55,765 nt of DNA from Oscillospiraceae bacterium (GTDB taxonomy: Bacteria; Bacillota; Clostridia; Oscillospirales; UBA929): contig WRMG01000005.1 in NCBI GenBank assembly GCA_009777255.1, positions 1 to 55,765 of the forward strand. Reading direction: 5' to 3'. Made by a program: the position numbers and the translations under genes. Positions 11,072 to 41,985 of this stretch are shown here, in pieces. Under the pieces are notes generated by a model that saw only the letters and a list, made by a program, of their open reading frames with translations, had not been told where the DNA came from and made no database searches. The first letter of the stretch is position 1. Every line of letters starts with the position of its first letter.

Positions 11072-12823
11072 TCAAATATACTTTCTGTCGTACAGCAGCG
11101 CCGCGTTCAGCACCACCATTATCGAACCGGCGTTATGCGCCAGCGCGCCGGTGATCGGGCCGAGCAGTCCGAGGATCGAAAGAGTTATTGCGATTATATT
11201 AAAGGTTATCGAAATTGTGATGTTAAAAAGGATCAGCCTGACCGTCGCGTTGGACAGCCGCTTTAAGTAAGGCAGCTTAGCTATGTCGTCGCTCATCAGC
11301 GCGATGTCGGCGGCTTCTATGGCCATATCGCTGCCCATGCTGCCCATCGCCACTCCGACGTCGGCGGTTTTCAGCGCCGGCGCGTCGTTCACGCCGTCGC
11401 CGATCATGCAAACGCCGCGCCCTTCGCTTTGCAGCGCCTGTATGCGCTCTACCTTCTGGTCGGGAAGCAGCTCGGCATAAATGTCGGCTATGCCCGCGTG
11501 CGCGGCGACAGCTTCGGCGGTCTGGCGGTTATCTCCGGTCAGCATGACTGAGGCGACCTTCATGCCGCGCAAGCTCGCAACCGTGTCCGCGCCGGACTCC
11601 CTCGGCTCGTCCGCGACCGTGATTTTTCCGGCGTATACGCCGTCAACGGTCACAACGCCGCCGCGCCCGATGGCCGCCCGTTTCCCTCCAATTTCGCCCT
11701 CGACGCCGACACCGGGGGTTGCGATAAAGTCGCGTACCTCCAGATATTCGCCGTCGTAATGCGCGACGATGGCTTTGGCGATAGGATGCTCCGAATACCG
11801 CTCCAGCGACGCGGCGATCTGCAAAACGTCGCCCTCCACATCGCTGACAACCAGATTGCCGTGCGTCAGCGTGCCGGTCTTGTCAAACGCGATTGTATCG
11901 ACCTTGCCCATCCGTTCCAGCGCCTCGCCGGATTTGATGATAACGCCGTGCTTGGCGGCCTGACCGATCGCCGCCATGATCGCCGTAGGCGTTGCGAGCG
12001 CCAGAGCGCAGGGGCAGAATACGATCGCCACCGTGACCGCTCTTATAATGTCGCCGGTGAAGAAATATGTAGCGACCGCGATCAAAAGCGCCGTCGGCAC
12101 GAGCCACACCGCCCACTTGTCGGCTACGCGCTGCAAGGGCGCCTTTTTATTCTCTGCCTCCTGTACCAGCCGTATAAGCTTTTGCAGGGAGGAGTCCTCT
12201 CCCACCTTTGTCGCCTTTATGTCGATTGAGCCGAAGCGGTTTATAGTGCCGCAGAACACGTTGTCGCCGACCGTTTTATCAATCGGCAGAGATTCGCCGG
12301 TTATGATGGATTGGTCTATCGACGTGTTGCCGGACAGTACCTCGCCGTCAACGGGCATGGCCTCGCCGGGCAGTATGCGCAAAATATCTCCCTTTTGAAT
12401 CAGCTCGACCGGTATCATCTCCTCCGTGCCGTTCCTGACGACGCGTCCCCGTTCGGGCGCCAGACCGATAAGCTGCTTTATGCCTTTTTTCGCACGTTTG
12501 ACTGTTTTCTCTTCCAAAAGCGCGCCGATAGCCATGATAAAGGCTACCTGGCCCGCCGCGAACAGCTCGCCGATGCAAATAGAGGCGATCATGGCAATCG
12601 AAATGAGCGTGGCGGAGGATATTTTATATATTCCCTTGCCGAAGACGAGCCGCCAGACGGCGTAATAAAGAAGCGGATACCCGCATAGCAGCACCGTTAC
12701 CAGCGCGGGATCCACGGGTATATGTATCTTCGCAAACATAAATATCAAACTGAGGGCAAGAAAAGCGGCGCCGATCGCCGTCGCCTTCCAGCCGGAAAGC
12801 AAATCACAAAGTTTCTTAAACAT
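11072..12823 (-). CDS. Heavy-metal-translocating P1B-type ATPase lacking an N-terminal HMA domain
   Basis: FCPCALALATP, DKTGTLTHG, TGES, MLTGDNRQTAEAVA, MIGDGVNDAPAL, HNAGSIMVVLNA. Confidence 0.93.
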   Translation of the reverse strand: MFKKLCDLLSGWKATAIGAAFLALSLIFMFAKIHIPVDPALVTVLLCGYPLLYYAVWRLVFGKGIYKISSATLISIAMIASICIGELFAAGQVAFIMAIGALLEEKTVKRAKKGIKQLIGLAPERGRVVRNGTEEMIPVELIQKGDILRILPGEAMPVDGEVLSGNTSIDQSIITGESLPIDKTVGDNVFCGTINRFGSIDIKATKVGEDSSLQKLIRLVQEAENKKAPLQRVADKWAVWLVPTALLIAVATYFFTGDIIRAVTVAIVFCPCALALATPTAIMAAIGQAAKHGVIIKSGEALERMGKVDTIAFDKTGTLTHGNLVVSDVEGDVLQIAASLERYSEHPIAKAIVAHYDGEYLEVRDFIATPGVGVEGEIGGKRAAIGRGGVVTVDGVYAGKITVADEPRESGADTVASLRGMKVASVMLTGDNRQTAEAVAAHAGIADIYAELLPDQKVERIQALQSEGRGVCMIGDGVNDAPALKTADVGVAMGSMGSDMAIEAADIALMSDDIAKLPYLKRLSNATVRLILFNITISITFNIIAITLSILGLLGPITGALAHNAGSIMVVLNAALLYDRKYI

Positions 12824-13148: not shown

Positions 13149-13194
13149 ATATACCCCTATATCCTATAATAAATTATACCCAAACAGCTGTCAA
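13149..13194 (-). promoter_or_regulatory. csoR-ATPase promoter with putative CsoR-type operator
   Basis: Minus strand TTGACA (13194-13189), 17-bp spacer, TATTAT (13171-13166), then ATATA-CCCC-TATAT inverted repeat (13149-13162) at the expected start site. Confidence 0.6.
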
Positions 13195-13217: not shown

Positions 13218-13246
13218 TTGACTTTTTTAATATAATGTTATATAAT
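13218..13246 (+). promoter_or_regulatory. SigA-type promoter of the glutamate synthase operon
   Basis: TTGACT (13218-13223), 17-bp spacer, TATAAT (13241-13246). Confidence 0.8.
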
Positions 13247-13254
13247 ATTTTTGT

Positions 13255-13290
13255 TGGACAAAGGCGTTCATCTTTTTGGTGGGCGCTTTT
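13255..13290 (+). promoter_or_regulatory. Leader RNA: hexaloop hairpin UGGAC-AAAGGC-GUUCA overlapping a terminator-like hairpin; candidate ANTAR antitermination site
   Basis: 5-bp stem closing hexaloop AAAGGC (13255-13270); alternative 13-bp stem including wobbles 13260-13272/13278-13290 with loop UUUUU. Confidence 0.55.
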
Positions 13291-24171: not shown

Positions 24172-24204
24172 ACGCTGTAAACTGTAAGGAGAGGAGGCGA
24201 TGTG

Positions 24205-24774
24205 ATGGACAGCGTTCTAATCGTTTCCTGTTCCGGTAAAGGGACGGACTTCTTCTCCGAGCTGCTGAACTCGGCCGGCTTTCATCATATCGCCGTAACG
24301 CAATCCTGCGGCGAGGCGCGAAGGCTTTTACTCACCCGCGATTACGACCTGGTTGTCGTTAACGCCCCGCTGCGGGACGAATCGGGAGAAAATCTCTCGC
24401 GGCAGATAGCGTCCAGAGGAATTTCGCAAGCTATGCTGGTGGTAAAGAGCGAGCATTTCGAGGCGGTTTCCGCGGTTTGCGAGGACGACGGCGTTCTGAC
24501 GGTCGCCAAACCGGTAAACAGGGCGGTTTTCTGGTCCGCTTTGAAGCTGGCCGGGGCGTCGCAAAACAGACTGAGGCGCGTACAGGCCGAAAACGCGAAG
24601 CTGAAGCAGAAAATCGAGGATATACGGGTCGTTGACCGGGCTAAATGCCTTTTAATATCGCACATGAGCATGAGCGAAAACGACGCGCACAGGTTTATCG
24701 AGAAACAGGCGATGGACATGCGCTTGGGTAAAAAGGAAATAGCGGAAAGGATATTGAAAACATATGAAGCGTGA
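24205..24774 (+). CDS. ANTAR-domain RNA-binding antiterminator with degenerate receiver domain
   Basis: C-terminal helices AENAKLKQKIEDIRVVDRAKCLLISHMSMSENDAHRFIEKQAMDMRLGKKEIAERIL = ANTAR; receiver phospho-Asp position appears as Asn (DLVVVNAPLRDESG). Confidence 0.88.
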   Translation: MDSVLIVSCSGKGTDFFSELLNSAGFHHIAVTQSCGEARRLLLTRDYDLVVVNAPLRDESGENLSRQIASRGISQAMLVVKSEHFEAVSAVCEDDGVLTVAKPVNRAVFWSALKLAGASQNRLRRVQAENAKLKQKIEDIRVVDRAKCLLISHMSMSENDAHRFIEKQAMDMRLGKKEIAERILKTYEA

Positions 24775-24822: not shown

Positions 24823-25890
24823 ATGACGGCGTATCTGCTTTTAGAGGACGGCACTGTCTTTGAGGGGAGTTCTTTCGGCGCGCAGGGCAGCGTTACGGGA
24901 GAAATTGTATTCTCCACCGGCATGACCGGCTATTTGGAAACGCTGACCGATCCCAGCTATTACGGGCAAATCATTCTTCAAACCTTTCCGCTTATCGGCA
25001 ACTACGGCGTTATCCCCTCCGATTTCGAGAGCGGCGCCGTCGCGGCAAAAGCCTATATCGTAAAGCATCCGTGCCAAAACCCCTCCAACTTCCGAAGCGA
25101 GGGGGCTCTTGAGTCTTTCCTGAAGGAACGCGGCGTCGTCGGGCTTTACGGGATAGATACGCGCGCGCTTACTAAGCTAATACGCGAAAACGGCGTTATG
25201 AACGGGAAGATAACGCTCTCCCCGCCGACCGAAGCCGACCGCGCCGAAGTGCGGGCCCACCGTATCGGCGGCGCCGTCGCCGCGGTATCGTCAAAGCTCC
25301 CGTCCCCGCCGCTCAAGGGTTCGGACGCGGCGGCGCGCCGCCGCGTGGCGCTGATGGATTTCGGCGCGAAACGCGGCATCGCCGAGGCTCTGACTGCGCG
25401 CGGCTGCGAGGTGTGGGTGTTCCCGCACGACACCCCGGCTGGAGAGATCACGAAGATAAATCCCAGCGGCATTGTGCTTTCAAACGGGCCCGGCGACCCC
25501 GCAGACCCCGCGAATAACGGGATAGTCGAAACTCTCCGCGAGCTGAACCGGACCGGTATACCGATTTTCGGCATCTGCCTGGGGCATCAGCTTTTGGCGC
25601 TGGCAAACGGATATAAAACCAAAAAGCTCAAATTCGGACACAGGGGCGCCAACCAGCCTGTCAGGGACACGCGGACGGGACGCGTATATATCACCAGCCA
25701 AAACCACGGCTACACGGTCATCGCGGATAACGGCTCGTTCGTCAACGTTAACGACGGCACCTGCGAGGGTATGGATTACGGCGTGTCGTTTTCCGTGCAG
25801 TTTCATCCCGAGGCCCGGGGCGGGCCGCTCGACACGGCGTTTTTGTTTGAAATCTTTATGGAGAGGATGAACGCGTATGCCGCTGAATAA
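24823..25890 (+). CDS. carA: Carbamoyl-phosphate synthase small subunit
   Basis: LEDGTVFEGSSFGA, TGMTGYLETLTDPSYYGQI, GIDTRALT, GICLGHQLLALA, QFHPEARGGP. Confidence 0.96.
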   Translation: MTAYLLLEDGTVFEGSSFGAQGSVTGEIVFSTGMTGYLETLTDPSYYGQIILQTFPLIGNYGVIPSDFESGAVAAKAYIVKHPCQNPSNFRSEGALESFLKERGVVGLYGIDTRALTKLIRENGVMNGKITLSPPTEADRAEVRAHRIGGAVAAVSSKLPSPPLKGSDAAARRRVALMDFGAKRGIAEALTARGCEVWVFPHDTPAGEITKINPSGIVLSNGPGDPADPANNGIVETLRELNRTGIPIFGICLGHQLLALANGYKTKKLKFGHRGANQPVRDTRTGRVYITSQNHGYTVIADNGSFVNVNDGTCEGMDYGVSFSVQFHPEARGGPLDTAFLFEIFMERMNAYAAE

Positions 25891-28800
25891 GAACATCAAA
25901 AAAACTTTGGTCATCGGCTCCGGCCCGATCGTTATAGGGCAGGCGGCGGAGTTTGATTACGCGGGTACGCAGGCGTGCCGCGTTCTCCGTGAGGATAATA
26001 TCGAGATCGTGCTTGTCAACTCCAACCCCGCCACAATAATGACTGACGAAAACATCGCGGATAAAATATATATCGAGCCTCTGACACTGACGACGATCAA
26101 ACGCATAATCGAAAAAGAGCGCCCCGACAGTATCCTGTCCGGACTGGGAGGCCAGACGGGGCTGACGCGCTGTATGCAGCTTGCCAAAGAGGGCTTTTTA
26201 GAGAAAATGGGCGTACAGCTGCTGGGTTCCTCGCCGGCGACCATTGACAGAGCTGAGGACCGGCAGCTCTTTAAGGAAACCATGCTCGCCGCCGGACAGC
26301 CCTGCGTCCCGTCGGCAATAGCCACCGACGTCGGGGCTGCGGTCGAATTCGCGGAGAGTATCGGTTATCCGGTAATAGTGCGTCCGGCGTTCACCTTGGG
26401 CGGCGCCGGAGGCGGTATCGCCGGCGACGAGGCAAAGCTGCGCGAGATCGCGGCCGGCGGCATAAAGCTGTCGCCTATCAATCAGATACTCATCGAAAAA
26501 TCTATCGCCGGCTGGAAAGAGATCGAGTTTGAGGTGATGCGCGACGGCGCGGACAACGTGATAACCGTCTGCTCCATGGAAAATTTCGATCCGGTAGGCG
26601 TGCATACCGGCGACAGCATTGTCATAGCGCCCGCCGTCACGCTGGCCGACAAGGAATATCAAATGCTCAGGAAAGCGTCCTTGGATATAATCCGGGCGCT
26701 CGGCGTCGAGGGCGGCTGCAACGTCCAGCTCGCGCTGCACCCGCACAGCTTTGAATACGCCGTTATAGAGGTCAACCCGCGCGTGTCGCGCTCCTCGGCA
26801 CTGGCCAGCAAGGCTACGGGTTATCCGATCGCTAAAGTGGCTACTAAAATCGCCATCGGCTACACCCTGGACGAGATCACCAACGCCGTTACGGGAACCA
26901 CCTTCGCCGCCTTTGAACCGGCGCTTGACTATGTGGCGGTCAAATTCCCCAAGTGGCCGTTCGACAAATTCGTCTACGCCAACAGGGATCTGGGCACTCA
27001 AATGAAGGCGACCGGCGAGGTCATGGCGATAGCCGACACGTTTGAGGCGGCGCTGCTCAAAGCGGTGCGCGGCGCGGAGCTGGGGCTTGACAGCCTTGAC
27101 CTTCCCCGTCTGATGAGCAAAAGCGACGCCGAAATACGCGCGCTTCTTGATAACGTGACCGATGAGCGGCTGTTCGTGCTGTATGAGGCCGTCAAACGCG
27201 GCGTAAGCATTGACGAGCTTTATGATATAACAAAGGTTGACCGCTGGTTCCTGCACGGGCTTGCTAATATAGCAAAAGACAATCTGCCGTCCAAGCAGCT
27301 CGTATATAAGATGGTTGACACCTGCGGCGGCGAGTTCGAGGCGAAAACCCCCTACTTTTACTCCATACAAAACGGGACGGAGGACGAAGCCCTGCCGTTT
27401 ATCAAAAAAAGCGAAAAAAGCCGTATAGTCGTGCTGGGCAGCGGGCCGATCCGTATCGGCCAGGGTATTGAGTTCGACTACGCCTGCGTGCATTGCGTGT
27501 GGACGCTGAGGGAGCTTGGGTATGAGGTAATCGTCATAAATAACAACCCCGAAACGGTGTCAACGGATTTCGACACCGCCGACAGGCTGTACTTCGAGCC
27601 GCTGCATATCGGCGATGTGATGAGCGTTATAGAGAACGAAAAACCCATAGGCGTTATAGTGGCCTTCGGCGGCGGCACGGCGATCAAGCTGACGAAAACG
27701 CTGCGCGAGCGCGGCGTGAATATCATCGGCACCCCCGCGGACAGCATAGACATCTGCGAGGACAGGGGGCGTTTCGACGATTTGCTGGAACAGCTCCATA
27801 TCAAACGCCCCAAGGGTTACGGCGTGCTGACGGAAGCGGAGGCGCTCGGCGCCGCCGACAGGCTCGGCTATCCCGTGCTCATGCGCCCGTCTTACGTGCT
27901 GGGCGGACAGAATATGATTATCGCGTTCTCCGAAGCGGACATACGCGAGTATATGGAAATAATCCTGCGGCAGAAACAGGAAAACCCCGTGCTGATCGAC
28001 AAGTATCTGGAGGGCATGGAGATCGAGGTTGACGCTATCTGCGACGGCAGGGATGTCCTGATTCCCGGCGTAATGGAGCATATCGAGCGCACCGGCGTCC
28101 ACTCGGGCGACAGTATCGCCGTATATCCGGCTATAAATATCGACGACAATCTGACCGGAAAGATTTTTGACGTGACGCGAAAGCTCTGTATGGCGCTGAA
28201 TGTCAAAGGGCTGGTCAACATCCAGTACGTCCTGTATGAAAACGAACTGTATGTGATCGAGGTCAACCCCCGCGCGTCGCGTACCGTGCCGTATATCAGC
28301 AAGGTCACCGGCGTCTCCATGTGCGAGCTGGCCACAAGGATAAGCGTCGGCGAAACGCTGGAGGAGCTGGGATACACGTCAGGTGTAGCGCGCATACCGC
28401 CGTATACGGCGGTCAAGGTGCCGGTATTCTCTTTTGAAAAGCTGGTCGGTCTGGATACCCATTTAGGGCCCGAGATGAAATCCACGGGAGAGGTTCTGGG
28501 GCTCGGAAAAAACATCGAAGAGGCGCTTTACAAGGGGCTTGTCGCCGCGGGCTATACCATGCGCAAGAGCGGCGGGGTCCTCATTACTGTGCGCGACGGC
28601 GATAAAGCGGAAATCGCGGACGTCGCTAAAAAATTCGTCCGGCGCGGGTTTTCATTGTACGCGACCCGAGGCACCGCACGGTTTTTGGAGGGGAAGGGGT
28701 TCTCGGTCCAAACCGTGGAGAAAATCCATGACTGCGCCTTAAACAACACCGAAACGATGATGGAGAGCGGAAACATCAGCTATGTCGTCTGCACATCTGA

Positions 28801-29815
28801 GAAAGGAAGAGATCCCGCGCTGGACGATGTGCAGCTGCGCAGGAAAGCGTGCGCGCTGGGTATCCCGTGCCTCACGTCCATCGACACGGCAAACGCGCTG
28901 GCGGACAGCCTGCTCTCAGGCTACAGCGAAATCAACACGGAGCTTGTTGACATAAACGATCTGAGGGCTGAGCGCATGAAGCTGGAGTTTACCAAAATGC
29001 AGACCTGCGGCAACGACTATATCTACATCAACTGCTTTGACCTTGAGATAAACTCGCCGGAGTCGCTGTCGGTACTGCTGTCAGACCGGCATTACGGCGT
29101 CGGCGGCGACGGCGTCGTCCTGATCCTCCGTTCGGATATTGCCGACGCCAGGATGAGGATGTTCAATCTCGACGGCAGCGAGGGTAAAATGTGCGGCAAC
29201 GCCATCCGCTGCGTCGCCAAATACCTGTATGACAACCGTATGGTCACGAAAACGCGGATGAGCATAGACACGCTGAGCGGAATAAAAATAATGGATGTGA
29301 CCACAAAAAACGGGCTTGTCTTATCCGTCAAGGTCGATATGGGGCGCGCCGTGCTAAGGCCGGACGATATACCCGTCAGGCTCTCCGGCGAGAGCGTCGT
29401 GGCAAGGCCGGTAACCGTCGGCGGCGCGGAATATAAAATCACATGCGTTTCAATGGGCAATCCTCACGCGGTGGTATTCTGCGACAACGTTGAAAATTTC
29501 GCCGTCAACGATATAGGGCCGCTGTTTGAGTATGACGGGCTGTTCCCCGACAGGACAAACGCGGAATTTGTCGAGGTAATGGGCAGGAACCATTTGAAGA
29601 TGCGCGTCTGGGAGCGCGGCAGCGGAGAGACGCTCGCCTGCGGGACGGGCGCCTGCGCGGCGGCGGTCGCCGCCGTCCTGAACGGATACTGCGGCAAGGG
29701 CGCGGATATAAAGGTACAGGTGGCCGGCGGCGAGCTTATCGTAAACTATACCGACGAAGCGGTTATAATGATCGGCGACTGCAAAAAAGTATACGACGGG
29801 ATGGTGGAGATATGA
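25877..29815 (+). CDS. carB-dapF: Carbamoyl-phosphate synthase large subunit fused in frame to diaminopimelate epimerase
   Basis: 1312 aa. CarB part 25877-28975 ([24 protein letters not shown] ... [17 protein letters not shown]). DapF part from Met at 28976 ([59 protein letters not shown]). No stop between them. Confidence 0.92.
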   Translation: [1312 protein letters not shown]

Positions 29816-37951: not shown

Positions 37952-37980
37952 TTGACAAACGCAAAAACATATGCTATCAT
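37952..37980 (+). promoter_or_regulatory. SigA-type promoter of the amt-PII/glnN unit
   Basis: TTGACA (37952-37957), 17-bp spacer, TATCAT (37975-37980). Confidence 0.82.
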
Positions 37981-37991
37981 ATCTATTGTAA

Positions 37992-38037
37992 ACGGCAAAG
38001 GCGCTGTGGATAAAACTGTCCACAGCGTTTTTTATTT
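37992..38037 (+). promoter_or_regulatory. Leader attenuator: hexaloop hairpin ACGGC-AAAGGC-GCUGU overlapping an intrinsic terminator; candidate ANTAR site
   Basis: Hairpin 37992-38007 with loop AAAGGC; competing terminator CGCTGTGGA(38002-38010)/TCCACAGCG(38019-38027) followed by TTTTTTATTT. Confidence 0.65.
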
Positions 38038-38139
38038 GTTATATTGCGTACAACGGCGTGCGGTTCCCCGTCCGGTAAGGGCGGAGGGGCGCGCGCTTTT
38101 GTTATAGAAAAAATAAAAGAGGAGAAAGGTGGAACAAAA

Positions 38140-39849
38140 ATGGATTTTGGCATTTGGTTTTTACTCGCGGCTGCGATGGTGTTCTTCATGCAGGCGGGTT
38201 TCGCAATGGTGGAGTCGGGCTTTACCCGCGCGAAAAACGCCGCGAATATTATCATGAAGAACCTGATGGATTTCTGTATCGGCACGGTATTCTTCGTCCT
38301 GATCGGTTTCGCTATCATGTGCGCAGAGGATTACCTGTTCGGCTTTATCGGCGTCCCTAACCTCGGCATCTTCACCGATTTTGCCGGCTTTGATTTCTCG
38401 GGCTTTGTATTCAACCTCGTGTTCTGCGCCACGGCGGCGACGATAGTGTCGGGCGCCATGGCGGAACGCACCAAGTTCAGCTCTTACCTGATCTACAGCG
38501 CGGCGATCAGCGCGGTCATATACCCGATAGAGGCCGGCTGGGTCTGGAACGAAAACGGCTGGCTGGCGCAGCTGGGCTATATCGACTTCGCGGGCTCGTC
38601 GGCGATCCATATGGTGGGCGGTATCTCCGCTTTCATCGGCGCGGCTTTCCTCGGCCCCCGCCTCGGCAAGTATTCCACAGACCCGAAAACCGGCAAGAAA
38701 ACCGCCCGCGCTATCCCCGGCCATTCGCTCACACTGGGCGCGCTCGGCTGCTTTATCCTGTGGTTCGGCTGGTACGGCTTCAACGGCGCGGCGGCCGAGA
38801 ACCTGTCGCAGCTGGGCTCCATATTCCTGACCACAACGGTCGCGGCGGCGGCGGCGGCGCTGTCCACAATGACCTTTACATGGATGAAAAACGGCAAGCC
38901 AGACGTGTCGATGACCCTTAACGGCTCGCTGGCCGGTTTGGTCGGCATAACGGCCGGATGCTCGAACGTGGACGCGCTGGGCGCGCTTATCATCGGCGCG
39001 GTGGCCGGCGTCATCGTCGTCGCGGCGATTGAGTTCATCGACCTCAAGCTGCATGTGGACGACCCCGTCGGCGCGGTCGCCGTACACGGAGCCTGCGGCA
39101 TATGGGGCACACTGGCCGTCGGGCTGTTCGCCAAGCCCATAACGGCGGGCGGCGACGTTATCTCCGACGCGTCGGGGCTGTTCTACGGCGGCGGAGCGGC
39201 GCTGCTGGGCGTTCAGGCGCTGGGCGTGCTTTCCATCGCCGGCTGGACGATCGTGACGATCTCGACAGTTTTCTTTCTTATCAAAAAGCTGCACGGGCTG
39301 AGAGCCTCCGCCGAAGACGAGATCACTGGGCTTGACTTTACGGAGCATGGGTTGCAGAGCAGCTACGCCGACTTCCTGCCTGTACAAACCCCCGATTTAC
39401 AAGTACTCGGCGGCGGCACGGCGGCGGTATCGGCCGTTCCCGTAAGCGCGGCGGTCCCCGTGTCCGACACATCTACCGGAAAGAAAATCACCAAAGTCAC
39501 GATAATCGCAAAGCACAGCAGATTCGACACGCTCAGGAAAGTGTTCGACGAGGTAGGCATCACAGGCATAACCGTCACGAACGTTATGGGCTACGGCATA
39601 CAGCGCGGGCATACGCATACATACCGCGGCGTGCCGCTCGAATCCCCGCTGATCCCCAAAATCCAGATCGACGTCGTTATCAGCAAGGTGCCCGTCAAAA
39701 CGCTGGTTGACGCGGTAAGGAAGAATCTGTATACTGGGAATATCGGCGACGGAAAGATATTCGTCTATGATGTTGAAAACGTCATTAAGGTTCGTACCGG
39801 CGAGGAGGGCTACGACGCGCTTCAGGACGCCGCCCCCGGCGACGAGTAG
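38140..39849 (+). CDS. amt: Ammonium transporter (Amt) with C-terminal fused PII/GlnK domain
   Basis: Amt: MVFFMQAGFAMVESGFTRAKNAANIIMKN, GFNGAAAEN, AVAVHGACGIWGTLAVGLFA. PII: ITKVTIIAKHSRFDTLRKVFDEVGITGITVTNVMGYGIQRGHTHTYRGVPLESPLIPKIQIDVVIS...GNIGDGKIFVYDVENVIKVRTGEEG. Confidence 0.93.
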   Translation: MDFGIWFLLAAAMVFFMQAGFAMVESGFTRAKNAANIIMKNLMDFCIGTVFFVLIGFAIMCAEDYLFGFIGVPNLGIFTDFAGFDFSGFVFNLVFCATAATIVSGAMAERTKFSSYLIYSAAISAVIYPIEAGWVWNENGWLAQLGYIDFAGSSAIHMVGGISAFIGAAFLGPRLGKYSTDPKTGKKTARAIPGHSLTLGALGCFILWFGWYGFNGAAAENLSQLGSIFLTTTVAAAAAALSTMTFTWMKNGKPDVSMTLNGSLAGLVGITAGCSNVDALGALIIGAVAGVIVVAAIEFIDLKLHVDDPVGAVAVHGACGIWGTLAVGLFAKPITAGGDVISDASGLFYGGGAALLGVQALGVLSIAGWTIVTISTVFFLIKKLHGLRASAEDEITGLDFTEHGLQSSYADFLPVQTPDLQVLGGGTAAVSAVPVSAAVPVSDTSTGKKITKVTIIAKHSRFDTLRKVFDEVGITGITVTNVMGYGIQRGHTHTYRGVPLESPLIPKIQIDVVISKVPVKTLVDAVRKNLYTGNIGDGKIFVYDVENVIKVRTGEEGYDALQDAAPGDE

Positions 39850-39894
39850 CCGGCGCAAACCCCCTCACAAAATCTATATATAAAGGTGATTGAA

Positions 39895-41985
39895 ATGAAA
39901 AATATTCCCGAACTGTTCGGAAGCATGGTGTTCAGCGACGAGGTCATGCGGGAAAAGCTGCCCAAGGATATTTACCGCGCGCTGAAGAAAACAATGTCAC
40001 AGGGCACTCATCTGGAGCTTGACGTGGCCAACGTTGTCGCCAGCGCTATGAAGGATTGGGCGTCGGCAAAGGGCGCGACCCATTTCACCCATTGGTTCCA
40101 GCCTATGACCGGCACAACCGCCGAAAAGCACGACAGCTTTATCGAGCCTGACGGCGGCGGCGGCGCCATAATGGCGTTCTCGGGCAAAGCGCTTATCAAG
40201 GGCGAGCCCGACGCGTCCAGCTTCCCGTCCGGCGGCCTGCGCGCCACGTTTGAGGCGAGAGGCTATACCGTCTGGGACACGACCTCATACGCGTTTATCA
40301 AGGACGATATATTATGTATCCCGACCGCGTTCTGCTCCTACAGCGGCGAGGCGCTGGACAAAAAGACGCCCCTGCTCCGCTCTATGCAGGCCGTGGACAA
40401 ACAGGCGCTGCGCATACTCCGGCTGTTCGGCAACACCGCGGCGCAGCGCGTCGTGGCGCTGGTCGGGCCGGAGCAGGAATACTTTCTCATCGACAAGGAA
40501 ATTTTCCTGAAACGCCCGGATCTGGTGTACACCGGAAGGACGCTGTTCGGTGCGCGCCCGCCAAAGGGCCAGGAGCTTGAGGATCACTATTTCGGCAGCC
40601 TGAAGCCAAGGGTGTCCGCGTTTATGAAAGAGCTTGACGAGGAGCTGTGGAAGCTGGGCGTTTACGCCAAAACCAGACATAACGAGGTCGCCCCCGCCCA
40701 GCACGAGCTTGCCCCGATCTACGCGACGACCAATATCGCCACTGACCACAACCAGCTCGCCATGGAGATTATGAAAACTGTCGCCGACCGTCACGGACTC
40801 GCCTGCCTGCTCCACGAAAAGCCTTTCGCCGGCGTCAACGGCAGCGGCAAGCATAACAACTGGTCCATAGCCGCCGACACAGGCGTCAACCTGCTGGAAC
40901 CCGGCAAAACGCCGCATGAAAACGCGCAGTTCCTGCTGTTCCTCACAGCCGTCATAAAAGCGGTGGACCAATATCAGGATTTGCTCAGGATCTCGGCGGC
41001 AAGCGCCGGCAACGACCACAGGCTGGGCGCGAACGAAGCGCCTCCGGCGATAATATCCATGTTCCTCGGCGAGGAGCTTACTGAGATTCTGGAAACGCTT
41101 GAAGCCGGCGCCGATTACAAGGGTAAGGAAAGAAACCAGATGGAGATCGGCGTGACGGTGCTGCCGCATTTTTCAAAGGACACCACCGACCGCAACCGCA
41201 CCTCGCCTTTCGCGTTCACGGGCAACAAGTTTGAGTTCCGTATGCTGGGTTCGTCATTCTCCGTCGCGGAGCCTAACATCGTGCTGAACACGGTTGTCGC
41301 CGACATCCTCAGCCAAATCGCGGACCGGCTGGAAAAATCGGACAATTTCAACGCCGACCTGGCCGGCCTGATCAAAGACACCTTCAGGGCCCACAAGCGT
41401 ATCATCTTCAACGGCAACAACTACGCCGACGAATGGGTAACGGAGGCCAAAAAGCGCGGCCTGTCAAATCTCAGAACCTCCGTGGACGCGCTGCCCGAGT
41501 TTATTTCCCCGAAAAGCATAGAGCTGTTCTCAAGGCACGGCGTGTTCACCGAATCGGAGCTTCGTTCGCGTTACGAGATATTTATGGAGAGCTATTGCAA
41601 AACACTCCATATCGAGGCGCTCACCATGGTAGACATGGTCAAAAACGGGATAATCCCCGCCTGTATCGGCTATCAGAACGAGATCGCGGAGCTGCTGAGC
41701 CTGAAAAAATCCTGCGGCGCATACGACGCTTCTCTCGAGGACCATCTGCTCGGCTCCGTGTCAAAGCTGTCGTCCTGCCTGCTCGGCAAACTGACGGCGC
41801 TTGAAAACACCCTTCTCGAGTCCAAGGCTGACGCGGACATCCTCACACACGCGGTGTTTTACCGCGACAGGGTAATAAACGCCATGTCGGAGCTGCGCCT
41901 GATCGTAGACGAGCTTGAAACCTTCGTCGCAAAAAAATACTGGCCGCTGCCGTCATACGCGGATATGCTGTTCAGCGTGATATAG
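39895..41985 (+). CDS. glnN: Glutamine synthetase type III
   Basis: ~700 aa; [77 protein letters not shown]-type region. Confidence 0.95.

Follow-up and report, generated by a model that had tools for sequence, protein, structure and literature searches.

The leader in front of the ammonium transporter gene of this Oscillospiraceae bacterium very probably works by transcription attenuation, with an ANTAR antiterminator as its reader and one hexaloop serving each terminator. Clostridial ANTAR control of GS/GOGAT genes (by NitR) is already known; what is new is a class-wide, promoter-abutting single-hexaloop architecture paired with a receiver that lacks the usual Asp, and this architecture conflicts with the model requiring both hexaloops. 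The genes behind the elements suggest that, in many Clostridia, one simple nitrogen switch governs ammonium uptake, type III glutamine synthetase (GSIII), glutamate synthase and asparagine synthesis.

Two hexaloop–terminator units and a sister leader

Within the window (i.e., the whole 55,765-nt stretch of DNA analysed here; features lie on the plus strand unless stated), unit 1 of the leader begins with a sigma-70 promoter at 37952–37980 (TTGACA 37952–37957, a 17-nt spacer and TATCAT 37975–37980, with TG preceding the −10 box; score 11/12), giving an expected transcript start at ~37987. At about +6 of the RNA lies the antiterminator hexaloop ACGGC[AAAGGC]GCTGT (37992–38007), identified by sequence, folding and covariation, in which a 5-bp stem (arms ACGGC, 37992–37996, and GCTGT, 38003–38007) closes with a C-G pair on a loop carrying A1 and G4 (AAAGGC, 37997–38002). 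The loop and 3′ arm also serve an intrinsic terminator (37997–38037, stem 37997–38032) as its 5′ arm; the terminator core pairs CGCTGTGGA (38002–38010) with TCCACAGCG (38019–38027) and is directly followed by the U-tract TTTTTTATTT (38028–38037). The terminator stem reaches into the loop, AAAGG pairing with the U-tract, and the predicted RNA from ~37987 reads UGUAA-ACGGC[AAAGGC]GCUGU-GGAUAAAACUGUCC-ACAGCG-UUUUUUAUUU. A preliminary description of this DNA had recognised the promoter and the hairpin, both of which are present, as well as a strong terminator with a 9-bp core between promoter and amt, which folding bears out (−22.8 kcal/mol, z −5.5); its statement that 38002–38007 are shared with the terminator 5′ arm also stands, except that base 38002 is the last base of the loop rather than part of the 3′ arm.

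The terminator is the default fold of unit 1, and the hexaloop is incompatible with it. The free hexaloop (−5.8 kcal/mol) is unexceptional, 33 of 200 shuffles folding equally well, and with the hexaloop held the downstream RNA retains only a weak hairpin (−4.7 kcal/mol). The Amt ATG, at 38140, lies ~100 nt 3′ of this terminator.

A sequence scan located a second unit (38047–38103) that had gone unnoticed before. Its hexaloop, CGTAC[AACGGC]GTGCG (38047–38062; 5-bp stem, loop with A1 and G4), overlaps a terminator-like hairpin (38050–38103, −34.0 kcal/mol by folding) that has a U-rich tail (TTTTGTT, 38097–38103) and stops short of the ribosome-binding region. Counterparts of unit 2 before amt in relatives covary. 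Where a unit before amt is the second one or lies between genes, it belongs to a sub-type whose loop is framed as AC[AANGRN]GT, and this sub-type covaries as well; tandem units are common, yet every terminator comes with a hexaloop of its own. The first controlled gene encodes an ammonium transporter with a C-terminal P-II domain (38140–39849; PF00909 8.5e-120, PF00543 1.2e-22) and the second a GSIII (39886–41985; PF12437 1.2e-79).

The arrangement of unit 1—promoter, hexaloop, overlapping terminator—recurs at 13218–13290, before the glutamate synthase/glnA/ANTAR operon. There, the promoter TTGACT-17-TATAAT (13218–13246) precedes the sister hexaloop TGGAC[AAAGGC]GTTCA (13255–13270; match to model R1, described below, 6.8e-6), overlapped by a terminator (13260–13290) with 13 pairs, several of them G-U, and a weak U-tract. 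The two leaders thus have the common loop and the different stems that had been claimed for them. One unit only was found in this sister leader. As the operon behind it includes the ANTAR gene, the protein would also act on the operon that encodes it. When the window by itself was scanned loosely for a hexaloop plus terminator, 9 sites came up against 1–9 in shuffles, i.e., near chance, with unit 1 and the glutamate synthase leader as the top scores.

Several features of the surrounding DNA are recorded here as side observations. The single leader at 13218 is followed by a long series of genes on one strand (13316–37891) that handle glutamine and ammonia (glutamate synthase parts, purB, purA, a glmS-like gene, glnA, the ANTAR gene, carA, carB, guaA, pyrG, gatA, gatB and aspS). 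One 1312-aa frame within it (25877–29815) joins the carbamoyl-phosphate synthase large subunit to a diaminopimelate epimerase domain, an unusual fusion. On the minus strand, a near-consensus promoter (13166–13194) is directed away from the glutamate synthase leader and faces a P-type ATPase gene (11072–12823, minus strand).

Conservation, regulon and co-occurrence with ANTAR genes

The preliminary description had listed a lack of the element in close relatives among its possible refutations; relatives do have it, and their amt leaders share the layout of the window leader. In a 16-sequence alignment, most members of which came from a hexaloop scan, both helices covary well above shuffled and slid controls, in agreement with the two mutually exclusive folds proposed earlier: in the hexaloop helix, pairing is 95% and double-change cells number 25 (8.2 for shuffles); for the terminator helix that excludes it, the values are 93.6% and 43 (13.3 for shuffles). 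A 51-sequence set gave 95.7% pairing and 60 such cells (21.2 in shuffles) for the hexaloop helix, the members of the hexaloop sets having been partly selected for pairing. Since most of the aligned sequences came from the hexaloop scan, model R1 was restricted to the terminator and searched against 199 genomes of the order, hexaloop pairing being checked afterwards. A hexaloop stem of at least 4 bp was present at 89 of 115 matches in genomes with an ANTAR gene (ANTAR+) vs 0 of 14 matches in 12 genomes without one (ANTAR−), and a strong promoter lay upstream of 74 of 115 vs 0 of 14.

These counts bear on the alternative that this is an ordinary strong terminator, belonging to aspS or to a simple leader, whose hexaloop arises incidentally from the common AAAGGC...GCCTTT opening. 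Ordinary terminators of these genomes do likewise open with AAAGRC, with A1 and G4 in 9 of the 14 ANTAR− matches to R1, and the stability of the free hexaloop is not unusual. The shared loop is therefore weaker evidence than it appears, and we rejected loop identity as the chief evidence. We nevertheless hold the ordinary-terminator reading to be very unlikely, because the terminator sits between a strong promoter and its gene, because the outer 5′ arm covaries and pairs with the 3′ arm in the ANTAR+ matches (89/115) and never in the ANTAR− ones (0/14), and because the promoter distance is narrow in 78 elements (see below). The element is diagnosed by its complementary 5′ arm, which lies outside the terminator.

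The regulon is one of nitrogen assimilation. Among 72 first downstream proteins scanned, 25 had a glutamine synthetase domain (24 of them GSIII), 20 were Amt, 8 were class-II glutamine amidotransferases of the glutamate synthase type, 5 were AsnA and 2 were CTP synthase. When 80 named amt loci were picked by protein alone, 78 had enough upstream sequence, and a hexaloop–terminator unit preceded 40 of these 78 amt genes vs 0.9% of shuffled sequences. In many of the named loci, model R2, built on promoter plus hexaloop, places additional elements at a distance of over 2 kb on the 5′ side of amt; in Neglectibacter timonensis, the elements far upstream of amt are two tandem units before a 698-aa frame, the start of which resembles GSIII proteins from other amt loci.

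With a match cut-off of 1e-5, R2 was found in 92 of 133 ANTAR+ vs 4 of 66 ANTAR− genomes of the order (counts that ignore phylogeny and include training genomes), the other 41 of the 133 ANTAR+ genomes having no match at 1e-5. In a sample of the class made up mostly of genomes outside the training set, the figures were 63 of 134 vs 1 of 109, again ignoring phylogeny. Strong element matches without an ANTAR match occurred in four genomes of the order (G022, G033, G084 and G097) and one of the class (G243), for which missing contigs or another binder are possible explanations.

Those few ANTAR− genomes, together with the nitrogen genes downstream, could speak for a hexaloop read by some other factor, e.g., another RNA-binding antiterminator, or for a metabolite riboswitch. 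An Rfam search, at the gathering cut-off and at E up to 10, returned nothing credible, the element consists of just one short hairpin, and the A1/G4 loop and the strong co-occurrence with ANTAR genes argue against both variants, which we judge very unlikely. The published gltD RNA motif is presented as a riboswitch candidate whose hairpin occludes a ribosome-binding site rather than as an attenuator like this one (PMC8632094). The ANTAR reading already offered in the preliminary description agrees with helix covariation, with ANTAR-gene co-occurrence and with the nitrogen regulon, the ANTAR protein being the putative binder.

The elements often stand in divergent pairs a few tens to ~240 bp apart, e.g., L143 (G189:C2) 2501–2817, G107:C9:31683–31859 and G092:C12:11484–11681. 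In G107 and G189, an ANTAR gene lies ~7 kb off, on the strand faced by one element of the pair.

One hexaloop versus two

Published ANTAR targets are dual, consisting of P1, a short linker and P2 (PMC3369931, PMC8164766, PMC8934654), with a linker of 5–12 nt in eut and of 2–25 nt under later criteria (PMC3369931, PMC8164766). Antitermination is reported to require the two hexaloops together, and a lone stem-loop to bind less well (PMC3369931, PMC8934654), though the minimal target motif is one hexaloop (PMC8934654); in the current model, an ANTAR dimer has to visit two hexaloops, the one serving recruitment and the other antitermination. With the dual-hexaloop targets of EutV (eutP), NasR (nasF) and AmiR (amiE; PMC3369931, PMC8934654) the window leader shares A1 and G4 in hexaloops on stems of at least 3 bp (AAAGGC, AACGGC), a conserved closing pair, an intrinsic terminator overlapping the proximal hexaloop, nitrogen genes downstream and an ANTAR gene in the genome. 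It differs from them in lacking two stem-loops joined by a short linker: there is one hexaloop per terminator, without P1 or linker, the hairpin is near the RNA 5′ end and the loop is inside the terminator stem.

Among 78 promoter-proximal elements, the loop begins 10–19 nt past the −10 box (mode 15), and each of the 78 stems closes with a C-G pair. Only ~5 nt of RNA lie ahead of the unit 1 stem; in these elements the stem begins so few bases into the transcript that a P1 would not fit. Companion hexaloops on the upstream side (stem of 4 bp or more) accompanied 3 of the 78 promoter-proximal elements (6.7 by chance) and 1 of 56 other elements (4.5 by chance), in a scan run without a confirmed dual element from these genomes as positive control. 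The promoter-distance argument is independent of that missing control. No upstream P1 companion was found in the window, nor any dual leader in 16 regions around Asp-retaining ANTAR paralogues.

The leader might still be a canonical dual target, either with an overlooked P1 or with units 1 and 2 acting as P1 and P2, as the published targets and the presence of two hexaloops 39 nt apart in the window would suggest. This strikes us as very improbable, given the short RNA before unit 1, the scarcity of upstream companions (3/78 and 1/56), the remainder of a terminator that separates the two window hexaloops far past a 5–12 nt linker, and the one unit found in the sister leader.

The 2022 EutV–RNA structure paper (PMC8934654) posed the extent of single-hexaloop use as a question, and its suggestion is the only mention of a single-hexaloop leader that we found in a literature of which subscription papers were sparsely covered; for NitR leaders, the single-hexaloop layout may already be described. 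Published two-hairpin searches would miss such elements. The large natural set found here, with one hexaloop per terminator as the rule and cultured species (N. timonensis) included, makes the question directly testable.

The proposed switch and its ANTAR protein

In the attenuator that we favour, RNA polymerase would start at ~37987 and, by default, terminate via the far more stable 37997–38037 fold. Under nitrogen shortage, the ANTAR protein encoded at 24202–24774 would grip the AAAGGC loop as the RNA leaves the polymerase; the held hexaloop would remove the terminator 5′ arm, so that unit 1 is read through, and unit 2 (38047–38103) would also have to be opened before amt-PII and GSIII are reached. 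No upstream recruitment hairpin would take part, a single hexaloop serving each terminator. The direction of this response is suggested by the controlled genes and by analogy with NitR of Clostridium saccharobutylicum, likewise an ANTAR protein, which is reported to induce GS/GOGAT genes on nitrogen limitation (Stutz 2007, cited in PMC6316151). The RNA target of NitR may belong to the same class as the window leader. RAT and the Sac-Bgl antiterminators offer a further parallel in a protein-held single hairpin exclusive with a terminator (PMC3369931), but with another RNA motif and another protein family.

The proposed binder (PF03861 3.8e-14, above the curated cut-off) is encoded directly 3′ of glnA; no other ANTAR gene was found in this genome, which is 64% complete. 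Counterparts of the EutV loop-holding residues Lys149, Glu160 and Met172 are present, in keeping with hexaloop binding; against it, the G4-stacking Tyr164 is replaced by His, as in AmiR. While the ANTAR domain places it with the REC-ANTAR response regulators of EutV type, its receiver is degenerate and lacks their phosphorylatable Asp. Specifically, Asn occupies the EutV Asp54 position (alignment to 6wsh), and 0 of 27 proteins of this ANTAR group have the phospho-acceptor Asp. The protein would presumably be activated without phosphorylation of the usual Asp.

AmiR and NasT, likewise ANTAR proteins, are set free by a partner protein (for NasT–NasS, see PMC3795266), and receivers without Asp are a known kind (PMC4395418). 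The window protein resembles AmiR and NasT in an ANTAR output without classical Asp phosphorylation but differs in its surroundings, as no AmiC- or NasS-like gene lies beside the ANTAR gene within the window, where the neighbours are glnA and carAB. We consider it reasonably probable that this is a class-wide clostridial ANTAR branch in which one promoter-abutting hexaloop per terminator suffices for antitermination, an Asp-less receiver is activated by a nitrogen signal that does not involve phosphorylation at the usual Asp, and tandem units determine the tightness with which amt and GSIII are shut off. Candidate signals would be a metabolite, glutamine synthetase or PII. The phospho-acceptor Asp is kept in a paralogue, represented by L033 and L034, in which a receiver is followed by two consecutive ANTAR domains.
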